This document shows positions 14,135 through 27,470 of a stretch of 28,121 nucleotides of DNA, piece after piece. The position numbers and the translations under genes are program-made. Origin of the DNA: Bolinopsis microptera (lineage: Eukaryota > Ctenophora > Tentaculata > Lobata > Bolinopsidae); contig NW_026971854.1 of the NCBI RefSeq assembly GCF_026151205.1, forward strand, positions 1 to 28,121, given 5' to 3'. Each line of letters starts with the position of its first letter. The stretch's first letter is position 1. Under the pieces are notes generated by a model. The model was not told where the DNA came from. It searched no databases and saw only the letters and a list, made by a program, of their open reading frames with translations.

Positions 14135-14479
14135 AGACCTCTCTATACAGAAGGGTGGTGTGCCAGGCGTCCGTGGGTGCACGGAGCATTTTGGTGCCAT
14201 GTGGGAGGTACTGAAGGAGGCAAAGGTCAAGAAGAAGGATCTGAGTGTGGTATGGCTTGACCTGGCTAACGCTTACGGAGCGGTACCCCATGTTCTGATT
14301 GCCAGGGCCCTCCGTTTCTACAACGTCCCCGAGAAGGTTATCAATATTATCCTACGGTACTTCTCCGGGGTATTCGGAAGGTTCTCCTCAAGAACGGTGA
14401 CATCAGACTGGCAGCAGTTTGAGATAGGAATCTTCATGGGGTGCAGGTGTGTGATATCAGTCATCTTGTTTGTCTTGTG
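14135..14479 (+). pseudogene. Outer element RT, N-terminal fragment (split by insertion)
   Basis: Encodes the fingers and palm start of a non-LTR reverse transcriptase: SIQKGGVPGVRGCTEHF, then VVWLDLANAYGAVPH (motif A with the catalytic Asp in LDLANAYG), then the SVILFVL strand following the GxxxGC turn (motif B region). The frame is open through the 44-bp repeat upstream, but that part is flanking DNA. It stops at a TGA (14478-14480) created by the junction with the inserted RTE-like element; the same frame resumes at 17023 as VLCMNLG. Neighbouring families of this type read ILFALAMN at this point. The start of the RT and anything before it are missing. Confidence 0.78.
14471..14479. repeat. 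Target-site duplication of RTE-like insertion, left copy
   Basis: TGTCTTGTG, identical to 17023-17031. The two copies flank the inserted RTE-like element. Confidence 0.85.
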
Positions 14480-16983
14480 AATCCAATGATAACGGAAAAC
14501 GGATGCTAGATTTCTGTACTATGCACCAGCTGACGATCGGAGGCACACTTTTTGAACACAAGGATATCCACAAGACAACATGGAGATCCCCAAATGGTAA
14601 CACCGTCACTCAAATTGACCATATTTGTATTTCAACGAGATGGAGCCATTCATTGCTTGATGTCAGGAGCATGAGAGGAGCAGATATAAATACTACTCAC
14701 TACCTGGTAAGAGGATATGTATCTATTAAGCTTAAGTGTCCACAGAAAAGAAAGAAGCGTGTAAGACAGCCTGCTTTAGAGAACTTGCGTGATAGATCTA
14801 AGAGCCAGGAATATAGTAACAAAATAGCTGAAAAATACTATACCAACGATCAGGAGCTTGGAAACTCTCCTTTAGAAGAACAATGGAAGAAATTGAGAGA
14901 CATTATAACTGATATCTCGTTTGAAGTTCTGGGTGAAAGGGGCCGGAAAAAGAGAACAGAACATCTCTCAAAGGATACTAAGAATCTCCTAAAAGAACGA
15001 GGTGAGATTAAAAAGAAACCTAGTACTGCTGAGAATCGTGCTAAGTACTCGCAGATTAACGGTCTTGTTAGGCAGAACTGTAAAAGAGATGATAATGCCT
15101 GGGCTGTTAGAGTAGCTGAGGAATTGGAAGAGGCTGCCAAGCAGGGTCAACAAAGAGATGTGTGGCAGAAAATAAAATCCCTTACAAACAAGAGAGTAAA
15201 CAGATCTGCGGCAGTGCGGGATAAGAATGGGACACTTATATCAGATCCCGAAGCTCAGTCACATCGCTGGGCCGAATATTTTGAAGAACTCTTGACGCCA
15301 GCAGCAGATGCGGTGGATTTCTCTCTATTGGATGAGGACGAAAAGGTACTTTCTTTTGAATATCTTAGTAATGATGATGAGCCACCGTCCTTGTTTGAAA
15401 TTGAGGAAGCTATCAAGAAGTTGAAGAACTACAAAAGTGCTGGAATTGATGAAATTTCAAATGAGCAGTTAAAGTACGGTTCTCCTGGACTTCTGCCTTG
15501 GTTAAAAGATTTGTTTGAAACTGTATGGAAAAGTGAGGATATTCCTAGTGATTGGAGGAAAGGAATCATCACCATCATCCCAAAGAAAGGGGACCTCACA
15601 TATTGCAACAACAACAGAGGGATAACTCTACGCTCCACCGTATCGAAGTTATTTCAAATCGTGTTGTTAAAAAGACTAAGTAATGGGCTTGAAAAGTTAC
15701 TTAGAGAAAATCAGTGTGGTTTTAGGAGAAACCGTTCTTGTATAGATCAGCTATACTCCCTTCATTGTATAATACACAATTGTATAGAATTCAACGTCCC
15801 TTTGTATATAAACTTTATTGATTTTAAAGCTGCTTTTGATTCAATCAATCGTGACTTTATTTGGAAAGCTTTTGAACATTATGGTCTTCCAACAAAATAC
15901 ATCAATGTTTTCAAAGCGTTCTTTAGAGCAACTGAAAGTGCAGTTCGTGTCAATGGGGAATTGACAAGATGGTTTGATGTCGATTCGGGGACTGGACAAG
16001 GTGATGTGCAAGGGCCTCCCATTTTCAACCTTGTACTTAACTGGGGATTAGAACTTGCCGAGAAGTTTAAAAATATATCGCGTGGTTTTACTCTTCAGTA
16101 CAGACAAAGTTCCAGACAACCGGAAAAATGTGTCATTGATTTGGACTATGCTGATGACATAGCAGGCATGGATGACACTGTCGAGGGACTGCAAGAAACA
16201 ACGGACAATATTGCGAAATACTGTGGGCTTGGGGGTTTAAAGATGAACGCAAAGAAAACAGAGATCATGGTAATTGGGAAAGATACGTCGCAGCACCCAC
16301 TCCCAGAGAATAGGACCATAGATATTACTGTCGATGGAAACTCTGCAAAGCAGGTCACTCAATTCACTTATTTGGGTGCCAAAATTACATCGGATGGCAA
16401 GATCGATAAAGAAATAAGTGTCAGGATTGGAAAAGCAACCGGAGCTTTTAACCAACTCAATAACATTTGGAAGAATAAGAACATAAGCATTAACAACAAA
16501 GTGCGAATCTACATCGCAGCTGTTCTTACCATTCTGACCTATGGAAGTGAGATATGGAACACGACTCAAGTGCAGACAAGAAGATTAGAGTCTTTCCATC
16601 AGTACTGCTTACGCAGAATCCTGAGAGTGAGGTGGTTCCATCGAGTAAGAAATGAAGATGTTTTAAGAAGGGCATCAATAACTGCTCTTACTGACATAAT
16701 AGCAACAAAACGGCTACGTTGGTTTGGACATGTCAGTAGAATGCCTGAAGATCGGTTACCTAACTATCTACTTGAATGGAAACCCAAGCATGGGAAACGA
16801 TCAAGAGGCAGGCCTAGGAAGAGCTTAAATGATGTATTTATTGAAGATGCTGAGCAGAGATTGGATCGTAATGGACTCACGATTGATTGTATGAGAAGAT
16901 TGGCTGCAGATCGAAAAGGATGGAGAAATATTACCCGCCGAAGTTGTATAATACAAAGTAATGACGCAGATGACGCAGACTAA
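14480..16983 (+). pseudogene. RTE-like endonuclease-reverse transcriptase, 5'-truncated
   Basis: About 830 codons remain. Order: the last ~80 residues of an exonuclease-endonuclease-phosphatase domain (NGKRMLDFCTMHQLTIGGT, TTWRSPNG, QIDHI); a basic linker; RT with FIDFKAAFDS (residues ~450-460 counted from 14470), GTGQGDVQGPPIFN and LDYADDIAG (~558), carrying the catalytic Asp residues; and a C-terminal RTE/BovB-style tail (LRWFGHVSRMPEDRLPNYLL, GKRSRGRPRK). In place of the usual endonuclease end S-D-H-H it reads NTTHYLV, so the catalytic Asp is gone. There is no native start codon: the open frame at 14470 begins in duplicated target DNA. The protein is therefore not functional as a full element, although the RT motifs look intact. 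Confidence 0.82.
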
Positions 16984-17022
16984 TCCTTTTGGATGGAGAT
17001 CTCGCCATGTAACATGTATGTA
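14480..17022 (+). mobile_element. 5'-truncated RTE-like non-LTR retrotransposon, nested
   Basis: 2.54 kb inserted into the RT of the outer element, flanked by the 9-bp duplication TGTCTTGTG. The 5' end is cut inside the endonuclease domain. The 3' UTR is very short (about 39 bp after the stop at 16983) and ends CATGTAACATGTATGTA, an ATGT-type simple repeat; short UTRs and microsatellite tails are typical of the RTE group. The reading frame is uninterrupted, pointing to a young insertion. The insertion is in the same orientation as its host. Confidence 0.82.
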
Positions 17023-17031
17023 TGTCTTGTG
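17023..17031. repeat. Target-site duplication of RTE-like insertion, right copy
   Basis: TGTCTTGTG, matching 14471-14479. Joining the outer element through a single copy keeps codons in register (VLCMNL across the junction). Confidence 0.85.
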
Positions 17032-18886
17032 CATGAACCTAGGGCATGAACACCTAAAGTCTAAGGTTCCGAAAAGCATTGAGTACATCAAGGATGACAC
17101 ACCGATACCAACTCTGAAGCTGTTTATGGACGATAGCTGTCTGACGACCGCACGTGCAGAGGATATGCAAACGTTACTTAATGTGTTTCAGAAGTACGTG
17201 GACTGGTCCAGATTTAAGTTAAAGTCCTCCAAGTCCAGAGCACTGGTGTTGAAGAAGGGAGTGGCTGTGAGGTGGGTTGAGGAGGTAGTGGTAGGAGAGG
17301 AGGAGGTGGAGAGAGAAGAGTTGTGTTTGCAGTTGGGTGGTGAGGTGATTCCGAATGTGTCCGAGAAGCCGATAAAATTCCTTGGGAGATGGATAAGAGT
17401 GGAAGGAAATGACAAATCAGTCATCGACTCAACCAAGGTCGACCTTAACACTTTTCTTCGGAGACTCGATGAAAGTTCCCTTACTGGACTCCAGAAGTGC
17501 TGGGGATATCAGTACATGGTCCTTCCAAAACTGAAGTGGCCTCTTGCCATCTATGATATTCCGATCACAACAGTTACTAGATGGGAACAGAATACCAATA
17601 GTTTCCTCAGGAAGTGGTTAGGGGTGGGGCACACTCTGAGTGGTCTTTGTCTGTTTAGTCAATCATCCAGTGTGGCCTTACCGGTGAGCATTTTGACAGA
17701 TACATGGAAGATAGAGAAGTGTCGACTGTTGCAATCCTATCAGACATCTAAGGATGACCTGATTAAAGCAGTCCAGCCCCAAGTTCGTTCTGGTAGAGTT
17801 TGGAGGCCTGAGACAGAACTGGAAGAGGCCAGAAGAGATTTGGTCTGTGAATCGGTGCGAGGGATGGTGCAACCTCAAAAAAGAGTTGGCATCGGTTTTG
17901 GTGACTGGAAAAAACCTTGGGAGAGGATGGATGAGCGGGAAAGAGAGAGGGAGGTTATGCTGAGAGTGAAGGAGAACATTGAAAGAGAGAGGGAGGTGCA
18001 AGTAGGTTCTCTGGAGATGCAGAGCAGGTGGGGTGAGTGGAGAGAGCTCGTAATGAAGACAGATTTGAGCTGGCATACACTTTTTAAGTATGGTGAATCA
18101 CTTATTGGGTTCATGCTAAGTGCTGTGTACGGCACCCTCTTAACCCCCTCTATGGTTTCCAAGTGGAGTGAAGATGAGGATGGGAAGTGCAAGTTATGTG
18201 AGGAGAGGATGGGCACCATTCAGCACATTTTGGCTGGGTGTAAGGTGGCCCTTAGTCAAGGAAGATATAGATGGCGGCACGACAAGGTTCTGAAGCAGAT
18301 CTCTGAACAGGTTGTCTTCCATTGTGATCGCCGAGTGAACACTTATAAGAACAAGGCCGGCGATGGAAGGCAGTTCATTGATTTTGTTCCTGCTGGGAAA
18401 AGAAAAGCAGGTACAGACGACCGGAAGGAGAGTCGTGGTTTTGGGATCCTGAGTGGGTATCGGGATTGGATAGTGCTGTCAGACCTTGAGGGGCAGCTTA
18501 AGTTTCCCAGTGAGATTGTGGAAACACGGCTGAGGCCGGACCTTGTGATATTCTCAAGGTCGGCAAAGACAGTTATTTGGTGGGAGCTAACAGTACCATC
18601 TGAAGAGCGGATCGCTGAATCGCACGACTACAAGCTCGACCGATACAGCGGTCTGCAGGCTGTGATTCAGGCGAAAGGTTGGTGCTGTTATAATGCCGCA
18701 GTCGAAGTTGGAGCTAGGGGAGTGGTTGCGCAGAGTTTGGAGAGAGCTGCGAGGAGGATTGGTTTTAGGGGAAGAGAGCTGAAGAAGCTGGTACGGGACA
18801 GCGGGAAAGAGGCAGCCCACTGTTCCAGATGGATTTACTTGTTATCGAGAAAGAGGGAGTGGGAGTTCAGGAAGGTTGGAGCTTGA
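17032..18886 (+). pseudogene. Outer element: RT C-terminal part, zinc knuckle, probable restriction-like endonuclease
   Basis: Continues the RT interrupted at 14479. Domains in order (residue numbers from the open frame at 16961): RT motif C as LKLFMDDSC (~52-57), thumb with KSSKSRALVLKKG and KFLGRW, a long helical basic region with many ERERE stretches, a zinc-knuckle CKLCEERMGTIQHILAGC (C-x2-C-x8-H-x4-C, ~409-426), the segment GRYRWRHDKVLK, then RPDLVIF...WWELTVPSEER (~525-550) and KLDRY. The RPD-x(n)-E-x-T arrangement after a Cys/His motif resembles the C-terminal restriction-like nuclease of R2-type elements. The frame is intact to TGA at 18884-18886. The upstream stretch 16961-17022 belongs to the inserted element. 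Clade assignment is inference; RT identity is firm. Confidence 0.75.
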
Positions 18887-19181: not shown

Positions 19182-19186
19182 TGGAG

Positions 19187-19212
19187 GATTTACACAGGAT
19201 TACACAGGATTA
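19187..19212 (-). repeat. 3'-terminal simple repeat of CR1-like element
   Basis: On the plus strand GGATTTACACAGGATTACACAGGATT: two tandem copies of a 10-bp unit plus a partial one. It lies about 100 bp beyond the RT stop codon and is read as the tail recognised for reverse-transcription priming. Confidence 0.6.
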
Positions 19213-19315
19213 AAATTAAATTATAGATCCATTATCATGGACCGTCATAATTGTACAGAGATTAATGAAAACATTCATCTTTCCTTGAAGTCAGGGCCAG
19301 GGTTATCCTTAAATC

Positions 19316-21811
19316 TTAATTATGACTAATTCGCGAGGTTCTCACCAAATTGATAGTAAAATTGTTTAAGTTTCGTGCATTTGAATTCCGCTGACGCATA
19401 TCTTCGGTGAAGCTATTTCGCTCTTCGGAGCAGCGAAGGAAATAAGTGCACACACAATTGACAGCATAGGAGCGCCTTTCTTGAAATTGAATATACTGTG
19501 GGGTGTTTGGTTGAATATTAAGTGAACGGTGGCAGTGAATATGGAGGCTCTGGTGATTTTGAGGAATTACAGTTGAGTTAGGAGACAAAATTTCCATAAG
19601 ATGGACTTTGAGATTTGTTTCATTGATATTGCTTGAGTCGGTGATTTCAGTGCTTATGTCAATGAGTGGCATTTGAGAGAGATTTTTGACTAATTTCGAC
19701 CTCTGTTTTGAATACAAGTCACATATGTAAAGAACATGTGACTCGTCTTCGATTGTCTCAACGCCCATACTTGATTGACACCACGCACATAGTCTTTGCT
19801 CACGGGGTGTGTTGGAGTATCTGCCTTTTTCAATATGGAGATCATGGGCGCTGATTCTAAGTTTTGTGGTGCTATAACGACGAGAGAAGCCTTTGCATAA
19901 GTGTAAGTAGGGCTCTCGTTTAAAGGTGTGTTTGATTGAGTGATAGAATGAGAGTTTAGAAGAAGTAGATTTCTGATATTCCCAACATTTTTTGAATTGA
20001 TTGGTTAGAGCTTCGATGATGTTAGGAATTCTATACTTTTTGCTGCATAGTGGTTTGATACATTGACTGAAATTTGACTGATTTTTGAGGGAGTCTTTTA
20101 AAAATTTGTGATCACTTACAGGGTTGGGCTTGGCTTTGTTGGCTGCATTTGTATTGAGAATTCGGTGCGCGGTTACGTGATCTAGTTTGTAAATTTCATC
20201 TAGTTCAAGGAGTGGTTTTATGTATCGATACCAAGGTAAGTTTAGTGATTTTTGTTCTTTTACGGCTGCAGTAACAAACGAATTCGACTTTGATTTTGTA
20301 TTTAGCCTTTTAAAGTAATTTAATGTTAAGCGAATTGATTGATAAATCAGAGGAATTCTCCCTGTTTCTCCCCATACACCTACATTTGATGCTTTACGAT
20401 GGACTCCCAATGCCCATTTTAGGAATGAAATATGCACTCTTTCTTGCAGAGAGGCGCTGATTTTTTTAAGTAAGTTAGTAGTGGTTGCTTCTGTCGAGTT
20501 AATCGTTTTGCAGAGAGATTTGTTGATCGTACTAGTGGGTGTCCATATTGGAGCACCATATAATAAAATGGGCTTGATGAGAGAGTCGAACAGTGTAAGG
20601 AGTGCTTTAAAAGATAACTTTGAACGCATGACAACCCTTTTCAGGCCAAAAAATGCACGCATTGCTTTGGTTTTAAGGTTTTGTTGAGCGATCTGCACTT
20701 GACCCGATTGATGAAGTTCAAATCCAAGGTAACAATAACTGTCAACAATTTCAAGATTAGATCCGTTGAGTGTAAATTTGATGTTTTGTACGTCCTGTTT
20801 TAACGCTTTCTTACCAAAGATGACTGCTTGAGTTTTGAGTTCATTGATTTCAATGCCCCACTCCTTACAAAAATTACCGAGAATATTAAGTTGCATTTGG
20901 GTGGTTTCCTGGTCGAGTGAAAGGAGTATAAGGTCATCCGCCCACAGCAGGTGGCTAACAGTAACATTTGAAAGTACGGGGCAATTTGGAAAATCTAGGA
21001 GGCAGGACATATCACTGAGAAAAACTTTAAAAAGGTCAGGTGAGAGTGGGTGACCTTGTTCTGTACCTTTACGTATCTGGAAGCGTTTACTGAGATGACC
21101 AGATAATTTTATGTAAGCGTACGAGTTTGAGTACATATTTTTGAGGACATTGTAGAAGTTTCCAGTTATGCCATTTTTTGCGAGTTTGAGGAAAAGGGCT
21201 TGACGGCAGACTGAGTCGAATGCTTTTTTAAAATCAACAAATACTGCATATACAGGTTTCCCCAAAAGTTTATATTTTGATGCTATAGTTTTCATGGTTA
21301 GTATGTGATCGTATGTTTGAGCTTTCTTTGTGAAGCCTAGTTGGTTAGGTGGGTCAGGGCAGTTTTCAGAGCGGAAGTGAATGAGTCTTTCTAAGAGAAT
21401 AGTTGAGAAGAGTTTTCCTATGACACTGCTGACAGCAACTGCACGGTAATTATCAGGATCCGATTTATTTCCCTTTTTATGAAGTGGAGATATAATGCTG
21501 ACGTTCCAGGGATAAATTCCTTGTGAGAAGCAGGCGTTAAAGAGGTTCAACATAATCAATTTATGATTGGTGTCCAGAGATTTTATAATTTCGTTATTAA
21601 TCATGTCGAGTGAGGAAGCTTTACCATTTTTGAGGGATTTTATACTGGAGTCAAGTTCTGTTGTGGTGATTAAGCTGTTGAGTGACTCAGGATGAGTTGC
21701 ACCTTGATTTATCAAGTCAGCTTGATCAATCATAGAAACTTTTTTATTTTCATTTATTGTTTTGTGGTTATCAGAATATAAGTTACCAAAAAAAGTCTCG
21801 AATCTATTCAT
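19316..21811 (-). CDS. CR1-like ORF2, reverse transcriptase part
   Basis: Codes for a non-LTR reverse transcriptase. Seen motifs: SLDMINNEIIK (motif 1 region), PLHKKGNKSDPDNYRAVAVS, AVFVDFKKAFDS (~188-198; motif A Asp), GTEQGHPLSPDLF (motif B), LLWADDLILLS (~286-296; catalytic Asp pair), a thumb with GYxLGFELHQSGQ-like SYCYLGFELH, and near the C-terminus LRISAHDLHIEKGRY followed by a zinc knuckle CAWCQ...HVLYIC (~672-700). The ATG at 21811 is probably not the native start: the same frame is open upstream to about 21901, and it continues the endonuclease reading frame after a one-base shift at the G7 run 21886-21892. Otherwise intact to the stop at 19316. Confidence 0.85.
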   Translation of the reverse strand: MNRFETFFGNLYSDNHKTINENKKVSMIDQADLINQGATHPESLNSLITTTELDSSIKSLKNGKASSLDMINNEIIKSLDTNHKLIMLNLFNACFSQGIYPWNVSIISPLHKKGNKSDPDNYRAVAVSSVIGKLFSTILLERLIHFRSENCPDPPNQLGFTKKAQTYDHILTMKTIASKYKLLGKPVYAVFVDFKKAFDSVCRQALFLKLAKNGITGNFYNVLKNMYSNSYAYIKLSGHLSKRFQIRKGTEQGHPLSPDLFKVFLSDMSCLLDFPNCPVLSNVTVSHLLWADDLILLSLDQETTQMQLNILGNFCKEWGIEINELKTQAVIFGKKALKQDVQNIKFTLNGSNLEIVDSYCYLGFELHQSGQVQIAQQNLKTKAMRAFFGLKRVVMRSKLSFKALLTLFDSLIKPILLYGAPIWTPTSTINKSLCKTINSTEATTTNLLKKISASLQERVHISFLKWALGVHRKASNVGVWGETGRIPLIYQSIRLTLNYFKRLNTKSKSNSFVTAAVKEQKSLNLPWYRYIKPLLELDEIYKLDHVTAHRILNTNAANKAKPNPVSDHKFLKDSLKNQSNFSQCIKPLCSKKYRIPNIIEALTNQFKKCWEYQKSTSSKLSFYHSIKHTFKREPYLHLCKGFSRRYSTTKLRISAHDLHIEKGRYSNTPREQRLCAWCQSSMGVETIEDESHVLYICDLYSKQRSKLVKNLSQMPLIDISTEITDSSNINETNLKVHLMEILSPNSTVIPQNHQSLHIHCHRSLNIQPNTPQYIQFQERRSYAVNCVCTYFLRCSEERNSFTEDMRQRNSNARNLNNFTINLVRTSRISHN

Positions 21812-21852
21812 ATCATGACTGTCAAAATTTAAAGTTTCCTTTTTCTGATTTT

Positions 21853-23241
21853 TTAGTTTTTTGAAAGATTGCCAGTTGAGAATTTCCCCCCCTCTATATC
21901 CTCATTCATACGTGCGAAGAATTCGTTTTTGGCAGAGTTCTTCAAACGCTTATAGCTACCCTTGACAAGATAATAGTTTTCACGTATAAGGTTGTTTGAC
22001 GGAAATTTTGAGGTTGCATCTGTAGCTTTACGAAATTCTCTTTTACCTAATCTCGTTTTCCAGTTAAACCAAGGTTTGTTTGAGGTGTGAGATTTTTTGG
22101 GTGGTTTGGTTTGTTTGAAACACTTCGAGGCCATGTCGCGAAGATGTTCTGAAAGTCGTTTGTTAATGTCTTTAAGTTCAGTTTCATAATTACGGACATT
22201 GTCTGCTAAAATATTTTGATTGGTGAGTAAGTCGATGTTCGATTGAAGTTCTTGGATTAAGGTCAATGATAGATTTTCTGACTGAGCTTCGAAAAAGTCG
22301 TCTTTGTTCTCTTCGTTGATAATGAATCTGGTTGGCGCTGTCTGATATGTGTCCTGTAATGGGGCACATTGGTTGATCGCGAATCTATTGCATTTTAATT
22401 CAGTACTGAGGGGCCTATGATCAGAATGTTCGGTGAATGTCAAGATTTTGAAGTAGTTGATTCTGATCTTTGTGGAGTTGGTCACTGCAATGTAATCAAT
22501 AACGCTGCACCCATTTTTTTGGATACTTGTGAAGTTTCCTACAAGATCTCCTAGGGTACGGCCATTCAGAATAGTGAGTTGGTTATGTTTGACTAGGTTA
22601 AGAAAGTGTGTACCGTAAGTATTTGTGATAGAGTCTAGTGAGTTTCGGGGGAGAAAGTTGTCAGGCTCATAATCGTCTGGTAAGGGAACAACGTTGGTTG
22701 AGTCTTCTCTTATCATACCCGTTTTTTGTCCTATACGAGAGTTAAAGTCCCCACACAGTATGACTTCGCCCTCCTCCCGAAGTTCGTTCACAACGTCTTC
22801 AATGTTCTTTAAAGCATCTTTGCCATTGTCAGTCGGGTTTGAGGCTGATGAATTAAATGGTCTAATGTAAACGTTAACTATGAATGTATCTTCTGATAGG
22901 TTAAAGAAATCCTTGTCTAGTCGACAAACTAGGTAGTCTGAACACTCTGTATTCTTGATAAACTCAATCCCTTCAATAAGCTCATTTTTAATGAGGATAC
23001 CGACACCTCCTGATTTACCGTCTTTCCTTATGTTGCAGATTGATCGATATCCTACCAAGTGAACCTCTCTCCTAATTTCCTGAAGACAGGCTAAGTCATG
23101 ATCTTTGATAACATTTTGAAATGATTCTATTTCAAATTTGCTCCCATCTACTGATGATGGCGATTGGATATTCCAAGAGAGTATTTTAATGCTATTTTTA
23201 TTTATTGAAACCTGTGTATTTTTTTGTGTGTTTCTAGTCAT
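21853..23241 (-). CDS. CR1-like ORF2, AP-type endonuclease part
   Basis: An exonuclease-endonuclease-phosphatase (APE-type) domain that would nick target DNA. Motifs in order: ILSWNIQS (~19-26), the catalytic Glu in CLQEIRRE, KSGGVGILIKN, VNVYIRPFN, ILCGDFNSRIG (~160), NGCSVIDYIAVT (~245) and the terminal HSDHRPLSTEL (~272), all with expected catalytic residues (N, E, D-x-N, D, D-H). A basic linker with KPWFNWKTRLGKREFRKA leads towards the RT. The frame ends at 21853 in a short out-of-register tail after the G7 run; the following codons in the other frame (open from about 21901) run into the RT. The start ATG lies 42 bp after the ORF1 stop, consistent with a separate ORF2. Confidence 0.87.
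   Translation of the reverse strand: MTRNTQKNTQVSINKNSIKILSWNIQSPSSVDGSKFEIESFQNVIKDHDLACLQEIRREVHLVGYRSICNIRKDGKSGGVGILIKNELIEGIEFIKNTECSDYLVCRLDKDFFNLSEDTFIVNVYIRPFNSSASNPTDNGKDALKNIEDVVNELREEGEVILCGDFNSRIGQKTGMIREDSTNVVPLPDDYEPDNFLPRNSLDSITNTYGTHFLNLVKHNQLTILNGRTLGDLVGNFTSIQKNGCSVIDYIAVTNSTKIRINYFKILTFTEHSDHRPLSTELKCNRFAINQCAPLQDTYQTAPTRFIINEENKDDFFEAQSENLSLTLIQELQSNIDLLTNQNILADNVRNYETELKDINKRLSEHLRDMASKCFKQTKPPKKSHTSNKPWFNWKTRLGKREFRKATDATSKFPSNNLIRENYYLVKGSYKRLKNSAKNEFFARMNEDIEGGKFSTGNLSKN
21886..21892 (-). other. G7 run separating endonuclease and RT frames
   Basis: On the minus strand GAG GGG GGG AAA in the endonuclease frame. The RT frame is closed by a TGA at 21904-21902 just upstream and the endonuclease frame by TAA at about 21855-21853 just downstream, so the change of frame must occur in this 50-base overlap. 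Either a one-base deletion from a G8 run or -1 slippage on GGGGGGG would join them. Confidence 0.75.
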
Positions 23242-23282
23242 GGTATTATATGTATAAATGAGAATATATTATGTGAGTGTAA

Positions 23283-26200
23283 TCACGTTCGACTAAGAGG
23301 AGAAGGTTCCAATCCTCCTGTAGAGCGGATTTTCTTTGGCTTGTTGAGAAGCAATCTTGTCATTTCATGGATACTGTGACGGAAGTTTCCTAGAATGACC
23401 TCTTTGCCTCTTGTTGAAAGGTGGACTCCATCGTTCGTGTGATACTCTCCTGTCAGATGGTTATCATGCATGAAGTTGGCGTTGGGGTTATAATACAAAG
23501 ACCGCTCTTTGAAGGGTTTTCGTTCGTTTTTATTAGTCACGGTCACAAATTCCCAAATTGCATCCCTTATCTCACCAATCCTTGCGTTTGCTTCGTTGTC
23601 AGATGTCATTAGTGGCATTGAAAAGAATAACTTTGTACCTATCAGGGATTCCTCTACGAATAGTGAAAATTGAAATATGTTGTCGAGACTTACTCTTAGG
23701 TCGAACTGTTGGTTGGCATCATTGACTCCTAGGTGAACATAGATGAAATCAGGTTGTGTTCTTAATAATTCATCTTTGACATGTTGGTCTTTAAGTCCAC
23801 CTGTGTCCCGCTTGTTGATTAGGGTCAATTCATGGTTCTTTCCGAGGGCATTCTTGGTGTCCATACCCTGGACATGTCTCAGGATTGAGTCTGAGATGAG
23901 GGTCGTCTTGAACACTTTTGAGGGCGTGGTGGATCCTGAAGTTTGACGAGTGAAGTCGGAGTTCTGAGTTCTAATGAAATCGGAGTTCTGGGTCCTGGTG
24001 AAATTGGAGTTCTGAGTTCTGGTAAAGTTGGAGTTCTGAGCTTGAGTGGAGGTCTGAGCTCGAGAAACCGAGGAAGTCATGCTGAATCCATTGTTTCTTC
24101 GGGACAACAGGTTGTTTTCTCTACTGTGAGTTCTTTGATCTCGAAAGGGTGAGGGAGGTTGGTAGGGTGGAGTGTATGATACATCATCGTCATTAGGGGA
24201 ATAGTCAGGTGGGACATCGGTACTGATCGCGCCATTCCATCCTTCTGACTGAGTGACTATTTTGTGAATTTCTTTAATCAACTGTCCGTCTTCCCGAAAG
24301 AATGCACTGTTGTAGTAGTTTTTGAGGTCAAATTTTAGTTTTTGAACACTTTTGTCTACTTCGTCCGTTATCGTTTCTGCTATAGAAATCTCCGTGAAAA
24401 CCTCGTCTACTCTGTTTTTGATCCGTGTGGTAGCTGACAGGTTTTTCTCCCAGAGGTCTTTGACCTTTTGCATTTCCTTCTTGCCAACCTCGAGGAGTTT
24501 TTCGATTTGCTGGATGCTAGTATCGGAGCACTTAAGGCTGTTAACCTCAGATGTAAGTTTCTCCAACTCCTGCTTAACGTCAATAACTTGGTTCTCGATA
24601 ATCGTCTGGACCCATGCGAGAGAGGGGAGTTTCGAGTCTAAGTCCTTATTCAGAGAGCTCCTTGCTGGTTCTTTGGGTCTAGACATCACATTCATCATTC
24701 TTGCTCTCCTTTCTGTAACAGATCCTTCTGTGGAGCAACCATTCCTCGTTAGTTCCTCGTTGAGGATGGGTTCAGGAAGATGAGCAACACAAGCAATAAG
24801 TGTCTCGGGAGGGACCGTGTGGTTCTCCACAAGAATAACTGTTCTTTCGGTGTCTTCGGGAGATACAGGGCCAACGTTGGGATCATCTTTGCTTACATCC
24901 AGATGAAGTGACGCATGTGTCTCAGAGGGCGACCTGATGATTGGATTACTATCCAACAAACTAGATCTGCCTTGCTCAGTTAAGTAAGAGGTCTGCGCTT
25001 CGGTCAGTTTGATATCAGTAGCGCTGGATGGGGTGATAGTAATGTCAGGGATATCCGTCGTCTTGTTAAAGGTCATTTGTAGTCCATTATCTTTTTCTAA
25101 GTTAAAGTCAGGTCTAAAGGGATCATCTGCACTAGATCCTTGAGGTTGCTGATGTGTAATAATGTCAGGTATCTCCGTCGTCTTGTTAAAGGTCATTTGT
25201 AGTCCATTATCTATTTCTAAGTTAGTAAAGTCAGGTCTAAAGGGATTATCTGCACTAAATCCACCATCTGTGGAAGATTGAGAGGGAGCCGTTTCTGACA
25301 GAGATGAGACTGAGGTCTGGTCACTTACACAATTTTCCTCGATCACAGTTGAAGGGGATCCAATGAAAAAAAGAATAAGTTGTTCGTTTTGAATATCACT
25401 CTTTCCTCTAGGTATGGAATGCATGTACTCAAGAGTGGAATTTCCTGAGAGAACACACAGAGATCCTGAGTGCATGGGCACCAAATGGGTTACTTTAGTT
25501 CCCCGTTTCAGTTTGAGTGATCTTGGGGCCCCAAGAGAAAGAATGGCAACTGTGGGTTTCGCACCATGTTTTCCAGCTAGTGTTTCGTAGGGGATATGAT
25601 CGTTATAACTTGGGAGTCGCCTGATTACTATGTTGGTGATAGTTGTATTAAGTTCAAATATTGAGCTCGCTGACTTCTCGATTTTCTTGGTGAGGTAGCT
25701 GATCTGATTTCTAAGGTTACTCTCCGGGGTCGAGTCATCTGGATGACCCTCAGACTCTACGCAATCATCTTCGATCTCCAGATTTATCTCTTGACGGCTA
25801 CTCGTTTGGTTAGGGTAATTTGATATGTCAATATTCAGCTCACTAAGCAGCCGTTCAGCGGCGTCGAAGTCAATGAAATCCTCGATGTAGTGTAAAGTAC
25901 ATTTCTTTTTCCTTTGATCCAGGATGTATACGCCGTTCTCCGTGATGGCCTTTGGTTTATTTGACTGTTTCTTTTTCCTCTTTTCTTGACTTGAACTACA
26001 CTCACTAACACTTCTCTCACTGACACTCCTCTCACCTGCACTCATCTCATTTACACTCCCAGATGCACTGCTCTGCTCGGAGTAACTCCTCATTCTGCGC
26101 GAAATCTTCTCTCCGGGATTCCAGTACGGACTTAAGGTTTTTGGTAGGCGAGATGGTTGACTGCTTGAGAGAGTTTCCGTGGGGTGTGTTTTCTTAGGAG

Positions 26201-27470
26201 TGCTGTTTGAGTTCTGTGATCTGGATTCATCGGAGAGATCTTCTTCTCGGACCATAAAAACTTGAAGTTGCTGATTGAAGAATGGAGTAGGTAGATATCT
26301 TTTTTTCTCCGTAACAAGCGTTGAACTGTAGGTATCGAAAGGTTCCAAATGAAATTTAGATAATTCAAATGAGCCGACGATAGAGCAAACGGCCAACATA
26401 AAAACAAATGTCAAAAAAACCTGATACCTTGTCAAAGTGTTTTTATACTTCAAAATTTGTTCCAAATTTTGCTCCAAATTTTGCTCCAAATTTTGCTCCC
26501 AAATTTTATTATGGCACAGGATGTGTGAGGTTGGTGAGGTGAAAGAATATTCCAGATTGGGCGTTTCTATGCTATCATAGTGACTACGTGGCACTTCGGC
26601 TCTGCCGCATTGGGTCGGACGGGTCTCGGAAAAAGCGAGCGCAGGTACACGAGCGCGACGAACGTGGCCACAAGCGAGGTGGTACCTAGTAACCCTGGCA
26701 CTGACTTCTACCACTAAATATTCGGAGCGATCAATAAAATGGTAATCGAAAAAATCTTCAACAAAATCTCGCCAAGTCCACTCATCAAATAAAATAGGGC
26801 GTTGGGGCACTATTACATTTCCTATCAGTATCATGTTAACATATTTAAAGAAACTCAAGAAATCAAAACAATCAACAAAGACATGGCATGAGCCCAAGTC
26901 TAAAAATAGGTCGGGGCGTGGGGCCACTGCAAGTATCACATTCGAAATATCACAAGTACATTCAAACAATACGTCATTATTCCACATAGTGTGTAGCATC
27001 GGAATATAATACGAGAAAGTTCCAAGACACCGGAAGTACGTCTGCGTGTAAGTAAAATGCAAATGTTCATTTAAACAGATGAGCGAAGAGTTGCAGTTAC
27101 ACGGGTGGTTGAGTGTGTAGGTACACTTAAAACTGATGTTAAACATAATCGGGTCCCTGATCGTTGTACGATATAAGTGCGAGTAGAAGCACAAACCCGG
27201 TTTTAAGCGAAAAGAATCCAAATCCAGTCCCAATTCCAGTTCCGATATGTCCAGAGAATTAGAAATAGGGTTAGGCGGAGGGGCAGGTCCAGTTCCAGCC
27301 ACAGTACTGGCCACGCCAGCGACTAAAAGTATCAACCACGTCACGGTGACAGTGGTAAATCGAAGAGCGTTTAAATGTGTAACGAATGCAAATGTGCAAT
27401 AGTGTCTATGAGTCAGTGCAATAGTGGCATGTGTCAGTGAATACGGGCGAGCGGATGCAATAGCGAAGGT
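23283..27470 (-). CDS. CR1-like ORF1: membrane-like N-terminal region, coiled coil, SGNH esterase
   Basis: An uninterrupted frame of about 1400 codons (open on to 27512 with no ATG; the first in-frame ATG is at 27146). Residue numbers are from 27494. Residues ~46-66 are a hydrophobic stretch (TVTWLILLVAGVASTVAG); ~100-320 are Cys-rich (LCFY, HPCNCNSS, FECTC, GSCHVF) with N-glycosylation sequons NIS and NSS; ~340-355 are EQNL repeats; ~360-378 are a second hydrophobic segment (VFLTFVFMLAVCSIVGSF). Then follow Ser-rich low-complexity sequence, an internal duplication (~745-815), a coiled coil (~975-1060), TRTQNSNF octapeptide repeats (~1150-1185) and an SGNH/GDSL esterase: ISDSIL (~1198-1203), HLGVNDAN (~1253-1260), DGVHLS (~1354-1359). 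The esterase ORF1 is known in CR1/L2-type elements; the membrane-like region is not one I associate with them. Confidence 0.75.
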   Translation of the reverse strand, partial: TFAIASARPYSLTHATIALTHRHYCTFAFVTHLNALRFTTVTVTWLILLVAGVASTVAGTGPAPPPNPISNSLDISELELGLDLDSFRLKPGLCFYSHLYRTTIRDPIMFNISFKCTYTLNHPCNCNSSLICLNEHLHFTYTQTYFRCLGTFSYYIPMLHTMWNNDVLFECTCDISNVILAVAPRPDLFLDLGSCHVFVDCFDFLSFFKYVNMILIGNVIVPQRPILFDEWTWRDFVEDFFDYHFIDRSEYLVVEVSARVTRYHLACGHVRRARVPALAFSETRPTQCGRAEVPRSHYDSIETPNLEYSFTSPTSHILCHNKIWEQNLEQNLEQNLEQILKYKNTLTRYQVFLTFVFMLAVCSIVGSFELSKFHLEPFDTYSSTLVTEKKRYLPTPFFNQQLQVFMVREEDLSDESRSQNSNSTPKKTHPTETLSSSQPSRLPKTLSPYWNPGEKISRRMRSYSEQSSASGSVNEMSAGERSVSERSVSECSSSQEKRKKKQSNKPKAITENGVYILDQRKKKCTLHYIEDFIDFDAAERLLSELNIDISNYPNQTSSRQEINLEIEDDCVESEGHPDDSTPESNLRNQISYLTKKIEKSASSIFELNTTITNIVIRRLPSYNDHIPYETLAGKHGAKPTVAILSLGAPRSLKLKRGTKVTHLVPMHSGSLCVLSGNSTLEYMHSIPRGKSDIQNEQLILFFIGSPSTVIEENCVSDQTSVSSLSETAPSQSSTDGGFSADNPFRPDFTNLEIDNGLQMTFNKTTEIPDIITHQQPQGSSADDPFRPDFNLEKDNGLQMTFNKTTDIPDITITPSSATDIKLTEAQTSYLTEQGRSSLLDSNPIIRSPSETHASLHLDVSKDDPNVGPVSPEDTERTVILVENHTVPPETLIACVAHLPEPILNEELTRNGCSTEGSVTERRARMMNVMSRPKEPARSSLNKDLDSKLPSLAWVQTIIENQVIDVKQELEKLTSEVNSLKCSDTSIQQIEKLLEVGKKEMQKVKDLWEKNLSATTRIKNRVDEVFTEISIAETITDEVDKSVQKLKFDLKNYYNSAFFREDGQLIKEIHKIVTQSEGWNGAISTDVPPDYSPNDDDVSYTPPYQPPSPFRDQRTHSRENNLLSRRNNGFSMTSSVSRAQTSTQAQNSNFTRTQNSNFTRTQNSDFIRTQNSDFTRQTSGSTTPSKVFKTTLISDSILRHVQGMDTKNALGKNHELTLINKRDTGGLKDQHVKDELLRTQPDFIYVHLGVNDANQQFDLRVSLDNIFQFSLFVEESLIGTKLFFSMPLMTSDNEANARIGEIRDAIWEFVTVTNKNERKPFKERSLYYNPNANFMHDNHLTGEYHTNDGVHLSTRGKEVILGNFRHSIHEMTRLLLNKPKKIRSTGGLEPSPLSRT
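23945..24050 (-). repeat. 24-bp tandem repeat within ORF1
   Basis: Four or so imperfect units encoding TRTQNS(N/D)F just upstream of the esterase domain. It is in frame and therefore tolerated; it probably arose by slippage. Confidence 0.8.
25046..25262 (-). repeat. ~100-bp tandem duplication within ORF1
   Basis: Two copies encode (N/D)PFRPDF...NGLQMTFNKTT(E/D)IPDI, with small differences including a TN insertion in one copy. The frame is kept. Confidence 0.8.
26455..26500 (-). repeat. 12-bp tandem repeat within ORF1 (EQNL units)
   Basis: CCAAATTTTGCT is repeated three to four times on the plus strand, giving EQNLEQNLEQNLEQ on the minus strand just before the second hydrophobic segment. Confidence 0.85.

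Follow-up and report, generated by a model that had tools for sequence, protein, structure and literature searches.

A hydrophobic, constrained N-terminal extension of ORF1 in a lineage of non-LTR retrotransposons of the ctenophore Bolinopsis microptera

Results and discussion

In a clade of APE-type, esterase-type non-LTR retrotransposons of Bolinopsis microptera, the typical parts of the ORF1 protein (ORF1p) are preceded by another 300-400 residues that include hydrophobic helices. We think it rather probable that this stretch is a genuine extension found throughout the lineage and that its helices are inserted in a membrane. Coding-type constraint on the N-terminus is strong in family F2, moderate in F3/F5 and modest in F1, the family of the element described here.

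The element and its ORF1 frame

The window, i.e. the whole stretch of DNA analysed (28,121 nucleotides), is one entire contig (C95) of the searched genome, which comprises 264.65 Mb in 232 contigs. It contains an APE-type element of 8217 bp (~8.2 kb) on the minus strand (27401..19185; Table 1). A short tandem repeat of the TAATCCTGTG type is present at the 3' end, and the position of the 5' end agreed within 3 nt in all ten rows having a 5' end. ORF2 matched PF03372, PF14529 and PF00078 above the Pfam cut-off, as expected for an APE endonuclease and a reverse transcriptase (RT). The ORF1 frame listed in the first-pass annotation spans 27494-23283 (minus strand) and comprises 1403 aa. As proposed there, it joins the N-terminus to a predicted coiled coil and a putative SGNH esterase in a single frame, with domain matches that are sub-threshold. 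Codons 1-31 are flank outside the element, and the flanking sequence 27494-27424 matches another repeat, found in at least 29 places. Given that 720 bp of flank beyond the 5' end still lies inside the window, the right window edge does not truncate the element, and the suspicion that the true N-terminus might be missing proved unfounded.

Elsewhere in the window, two further retroelement frames were found on the plus strand at 14470-18886, one with an RT and DUF6451 and the other with the end of an RT and zf-RVT (Pfam), and a minus-strand frame at 2215-2664 is built of a repeated RYNFRKTQLDLQQA-type unit.

Table 1. Features of the F1 element in the window; codons are numbered along the 1403-aa ORF1 frame
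Feature	Position	Strand	Remarks
Entire non-LTR element	19185..27401	-	ends shared with other copies; 3' end of TAATCCTGTG-type repeats
First hydrophobic segment, codons 46-66	27297..27359	-	precedes first AUG; no sign of constraint
Predicted 5' hairpin, in-frame GTG (27314-27312, codon 61) in loop	27302..27325	-	z -2.18; 8/200 shuffles fold as well
Earliest ATG of the element, all frames considered (codon 117)	27144..27146	-	
Extra ORF1 N-terminal region, Cys-rich, hydrophobic, codons 117-414	26253..27146	-	open in 6/7 rows; omega 0.47; changes by position 6/7/17
Moderately hydrophobic stretch, codons 153-171	26982..27038	-	Wimley-White scale
Moderately hydrophobic stretch, codons 212-230	26805..26861	-	KD19 1.53
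Transmembrane-like helix, codons 358-377	26364..26423	-	KD19 2.11; no A/B differences in 3 pairs counted
Degenerate AlkB-like stretch, codons 646-704	25383..25559	-	PF13532, E 9.1e-5, below cut-off
Short ORF1 module common to the families, codons ~893-934	24693..24818	-	weak hhalign matches
Predicted coiled-coil region, codons 948-1058	24321..24653	-	sub-threshold coiled-coil-type Pfam matches; omega 0.08 (946-1080)
SGNH/GDSL-like esterase match, codons 1234-1364	23403..23795	-	DS, GVND, DGVHL motifs; omega 0.11 (1200-1403)
ORF2, APE endonuclease part	21853..23241	-	PF03372/PF14529
ORF2, RT part	19316..21811	-	PF00078; frame differs from endonuclease in window copy

Constraint on the F1 N-terminus

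Five of the seven full-length F1 rows have an uninterrupted frame from the first element bases to the ORF1 stop, and in six of the seven, codons 117-414 are free of stops. Row L004 has one frame break, 3' of the N-terminal part, and the seventh row, L006, is broken throughout; of the shorter copies, L010 retains just the end of the N-terminus, and L007-L009 retain fragments of it. Indels within codons 117-414 of rows L001-L005 amount to -12, -12 and +6, and the chance of 298 open codons at the given base composition is about 3e-8 (P). The long open N-terminus noticed earlier thus holds for codons 117-414 and not for the flanking codons 1-31. Considering this P value, the open copies and the third-position excess described below, a chance open frame is unlikely. 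An intron origin was likewise discarded, as the internally deleted copies L008 and L009 lack GT-AG junctions.

When the F1 subfamilies A and B were compared, with L006 excluded as an apparent noisy duplicate of L003, omega was 0.47 for codons 117-414, 0.20 for codons 415-610, 0.28 for the AlkB-like stretch, 0.26 for the linker and 0.81 for codons 720-945; for codons 43-116 it was 1.17. Stops in other copies or a dN/dS near 1 had been named beforehand as signs against the region; codons 117-414 are free of stops in six of the seven rows and have an omega below 1, and the stretch with the first hydrophobic segment did not stand up to this comparison. The omega of 0.47 proves little by itself, because an unconstrained stretch upstream of ORF1 in family F6, which also has a hydrophobic peak, comes near 0.5 as well. 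Better evidence appears to be offered by the distribution of changes over the three codon positions: 6/7/17 (window vs L003) and 7/7/18 (window vs L005) in codons 117-414, 11/10/31 and 11/10/32 for the same pairs in codons 946-1403, and 3/3/4 before the AUG. The third-position pattern of codons 117-414 resembles that of known coding sequence. The synonymous excess is modest (8/18 fixed differences, P 0.02; pair mean 11/30, P 0.04).

One may object that in F1 the N-terminus is no longer translated and forms a 5' UTR, in which the open frame is an ancestral leftover or a product of chance, and that ORF1 begins downstream of it. This would fit with the lack of an AUG before codon 117, with the weak codon usage of the F1 N-terminus (z 0.5 and 2.2 vs 5.5 and 7.7) and with the F6 stretch, which is presumably untranslated and yet likewise open and hydrophobic. 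Taking F1 alone, some doubt about the N-terminus would indeed stay. Nevertheless, the P value for the open codons, the third-position excess, the indels in multiples of three and the strong constraint on the corresponding region of the sister family F2 make an untranslated N-terminus improbable.

As to L006, its 3' flank is identical to that of L003 over 625 bp and its 5' flank is 84-88% identical. The same insertion appears to occur twice on contig C8, once in an error-rich form, which perhaps reflects an uncollapsed haplotype in the assembly.

Hydropathy, composition and the 5' hairpin

Both hydrophobic segments that had been noticed in the window copy are present (codons 49-67 and 359-377, KD19 1.98 and 2.11). 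No ATG was found between 27401 and codon 117, so that the segment at codons 46-66 lies ahead of any AUG; it is unconstrained as well, which leaves this first segment unsupported. Shuffling of F1 residues 117-414 reached the observed hydropathy maximum in 87 of 1000 cases, and the helix at codons 359-377 is therefore not exceptional for its composition. The maximum KD19 of the N-terminus is 2.11 in F1, 3.06 in F2 and 2.60 in F3, against 1.16, 1.02 and 0.99 in the rest of the respective proteins. AlphaFold2, run twice on window proteins in single-sequence mode, gave a mean pLDDT of 36 and 32 and no usable structure.

From hydropathy alone we infer that ORF1p may be membrane-anchored. An alternative reading is that the N-terminus is coding and does not span a membrane, forming instead a hydrophobic, Cys-rich domain for self-association, condensates or metal binding. 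Constraint is observed, whereas hydropathy is the sole membrane sign, and such a domain agrees with the Cys content of codons 117-414 in F1 (4.4% vs 0.8%, which bears out the Cys-rich stretch of the first-pass annotation), with that of the F2 N-terminus (4.1%) and with the F1 peak that does not rise above composition. It sits less well with the helices of F2 and F3, whose KD19 was reached in 0 and 6 of 1000 residue shuffles, respectively. We consider a non-membrane domain a serious minority reading, with the odds clearly against it.

The layout in F1 and F2, in which a Cys-rich stretch is framed by hydrophobic ones, might also suggest that a secreted or membrane module was captured, in an Env-like manner, with a signal peptide (possibly made via a non-AUG start), a glycosylated ectodomain and an anchor. 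However, the AUG comes only after the first segment, which shows no constraint in F1 or in F3/F5, and the N-glycosylation sequons, to which weight had been given earlier, occur at chance level (2 vs 2.2 expected in F1, 3 vs 3.8 in F2 and 3 vs 2.6 in F3). Moreover, searches of the N-terminus against Pfam, NCBIfam and PDB sequences, and of the F3/F4/F5 N-terminal alignment against viral contigs, recovered nothing significant. Capture of such a module, as the first-pass annotation had suggested, is very improbable.

A 5' hairpin is predicted in five families (start regions of L011, L017, L021 and L030, and window 27302-27325), with z values of -2.2 to -4.1. The F1 hairpin, which overlaps the first hydrophobic segment, is the counterpart of the ATG hairpin found in F2, F3 and F5. 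The codon at the loop is ATG in these three families, CTG in the F4 copy and GTG in F1, and it is predicted to be the likely start codon in all five. In F2, F3 and F5 the stretch that matches the first segment ends in this ATG. In F3/F5 the 15 codons ahead of it show no constraint (omega 1.13), and those of F2 show only 1 and 1 changes, too few to judge constraint. In F1, a non-AUG start could possibly include part of the first hydrophobic segment.

The N-terminus in related families

Family F2 was found via the F1 ORF1 body (around 30% identity over aa 481-714 and 24-25% in the esterase), and its RT is 60% identical to that of F1. It has the same ORF1 layout, with a frame of 1229-1254 aa in all six fetched rows and a strong helix at aa 310-334. 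Over aa 18-381 (362 codons), omega was 0.18-0.22 (P 1e-7 to 2e-6) against three diverged F2 rows, which belong to one subfamily and hence amount to nearly one comparison; the values for the F2 esterase, 0.14 and 0.18, are close to this. Indels over aa 18-381 are -6, +3 and +6. Changes by codon position range from 6/6/23 to 8/7/24 in aa 18-300; in aa 301-381, where the strong helix lies, there are just 8-9 changes, flat over the codon positions, too few to resolve this part separately. The comparison with L039 over aa 382-640 was spoiled by a deletion and left unused.

Further families were recovered by an RT search at 46-52% identity. The N-termini of F3/F5 gave an omega of 0.41 (bootstrap 0.25-0.64), with changes by codon position of 30/20/41. 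The N-terminus of F4, a family represented by a single copy (L030) that is frame-broken further downstream, is 39% identical to that of F3 and includes an invariant block (codon positions 70/50/102). The N-termini of F3, F4 and F5 are homologous, and F2 is distantly related to them: F2 and F3 align at the protein level with a z of 4.85 (0/200 shuffles) and a score of 63 without the start motif. The F1 N-terminus did not match those of the other families (z -0.9 to 1.5), and the number and position of the helices vary between families. Copies L018, L019, L022, L024, L025, L028, L029, L032 and L033 lack the family N-terminus or most of it.

In the RT tree, which takes in only families of the searched genome and no named CR1/L2 reference RTs, F3-F5 fall together at 96/94 and F6 joins F1 and F2 at 82/86, which is not firm. 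Given the same layout in the sister family F2 and the constrained N-termini in F3-F5, the data support the hydrophobic N-terminus, seen in F1, F2, F3, F5 and the one copy of F4, as a lineage trait and not as a capture by the window copy. Of the two origins put forward in the first pass, it is thus the lineage with a membrane-like ORF1 N-terminus that was borne out.

A stretch at G000:C6:15743035-15743298 weakly matches aa 69-146 of the F2 N-terminus (40%, E 1.3e-4) and is perhaps a remnant of another family.

The ORF1 body and the AlkB domain

Pfam matches to the SGNH esterase and the coiled coil were below cut-off in F1, F2, F3 and F6, with Ser/Asn/His motifs in F1, F2 and F6. The latter three keep the GxND motif; in L017 and L019/L020 (F3, F4) it reads GTRD or GAHD (F4 by eye), and judging from these residues catalysis may be lost there. 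The short module shared by the families, for which the F1 hhalign profile was built from 3 of the 5 open copies, is perhaps SAP-like. A 2A-type peptide is not apparent, as NPGP is absent from the four ORF1 proteins checked.

The AlkB-like stretch of F1 has a counterpart at the same place in F2 (E 0.041, below cut-off), and no AlkB-type Pfam match was found in F3 ORF1. HxD is absent from the aligned columns of F1-F5, in an alignment that is loose, and F1 retains the second His only.

Family F6 (L023:2946-5180, L034-L038; L026 and L027 hold no F6 ORF1) carries an intact ALKBH3-like AlkB domain ahead of the coiled coil and an esterase-like part. The match is full-length (E 1.6e-22 and 2.3e-22), the nearest solved structure is human ALKBH3 (E 2e-15), and HxD, H and R are kept in all six rows. 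Omega of the domain is 0.05 in comparison with four diverged rows (two closely related pairs) and 0.09 for a single near-identical row. This AlkB-bearing non-LTR ORF1 is perhaps the more novel find, and the intactness and strong constraint of the domain suggest that RNA/DNA methylation or alkylation is important, either for the elements or for the way in which the host controls them.

A conserved MQD appears to be the start of F6 ORF1, and omega after it is 0.12-0.16. The last 44 codons before MQD are open and without indels in the compared rows (omega 0.47-0.54); the upstream sequence is hydrophobic (KD19 2.04) and flat by codon position, with an omega of 0.53-1.30 before these 44 codons. A constrained hydrophobic N-terminus was not found in the F6 rows compared, and F6 probably is without the extension. 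As the placement of F6 is not firm, either a loss in F6 or an earlier branching of F6 is compatible with the RT tree.

A possible membrane role of ORF1p

Retroviral Gag assembles at a membrane, and we found no sequence relation between Gag and the ORF1 proteins, so that the comparison serves as a working analogy only. Most likely, translation would begin at the 5' hairpin or downstream of it, and the N-terminal helices would insert ORF1p into an internal membrane, e.g. the ER or the nuclear envelope. There the coiled coil would multimerise ORF1p, the esterase could act on lipids or acyl groups, and the RNP would assemble on the membrane in a Gag-like way. We infer membrane insertion, compartment, topology, start codon and the role in transposition from the sequences. 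A wider scenario is that an ALKBH3-like demethylase was taken into ORF1p and that, where it decayed, a constrained membrane N-terminus would serve RNP assembly at a membrane, a lipid-acting, Gag-like strategy without Gag; this we put forward tentatively, with less than even confidence.

Parts of this scheme have precedents. In zebrafish ZfL2-1, ORF1p forms dimers through the coiled coil, and the esterase cleaves esters (PMC3905857); in the same paper, Schneider et al. (2013) report that the esterase domain binds negatively charged liposomes, speculate that membranes participate in the assembly and transport of LINE RNPs, and draw the analogy with membrane assembly of Gag. For L1, an involvement of ESCRT was reported subsequently (PMC5478143). 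The window element resembles such CR1/L2 esterase-type elements in having an ORF1 with a predicted coiled coil and an SGNH-esterase-like part and an ORF2 with APE and RT (PMC3905857, PMC4120745), and a membrane role has already been proposed for this type. It differs by the extra hydrophobic N-terminus and the AlkB-like stretch, neither of which is in the ORF1 table of PMC4120745. Orchid Ty3/Gypsy elements also acquired an AlkB domain (PMC9289625), but these are LTR elements of a plant with the domain in a separate ORF, whereas here it is found in a non-LTR ORF1 of an animal. Compared with AlkB/ALKBH3-type 2OG-Fe(II) dioxygenases, F6 shows the complete domain, including HxD, H and R, whereas the match in the window family is partial, sub-threshold and without HxD.

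In open-licence PMC text, titles and abstract beginnings did not describe a transmembrane or signal-peptide ORF1, nor, among the matches listed, AlkB in non-LTR elements; for the ctenophore LINE literature, those of the matches listed mentioned neither trait. A conserved hydrophobic, membrane-type N-terminus before the same kind of esterase would provide a natural test case for the idea that LINEs make use of membranes.
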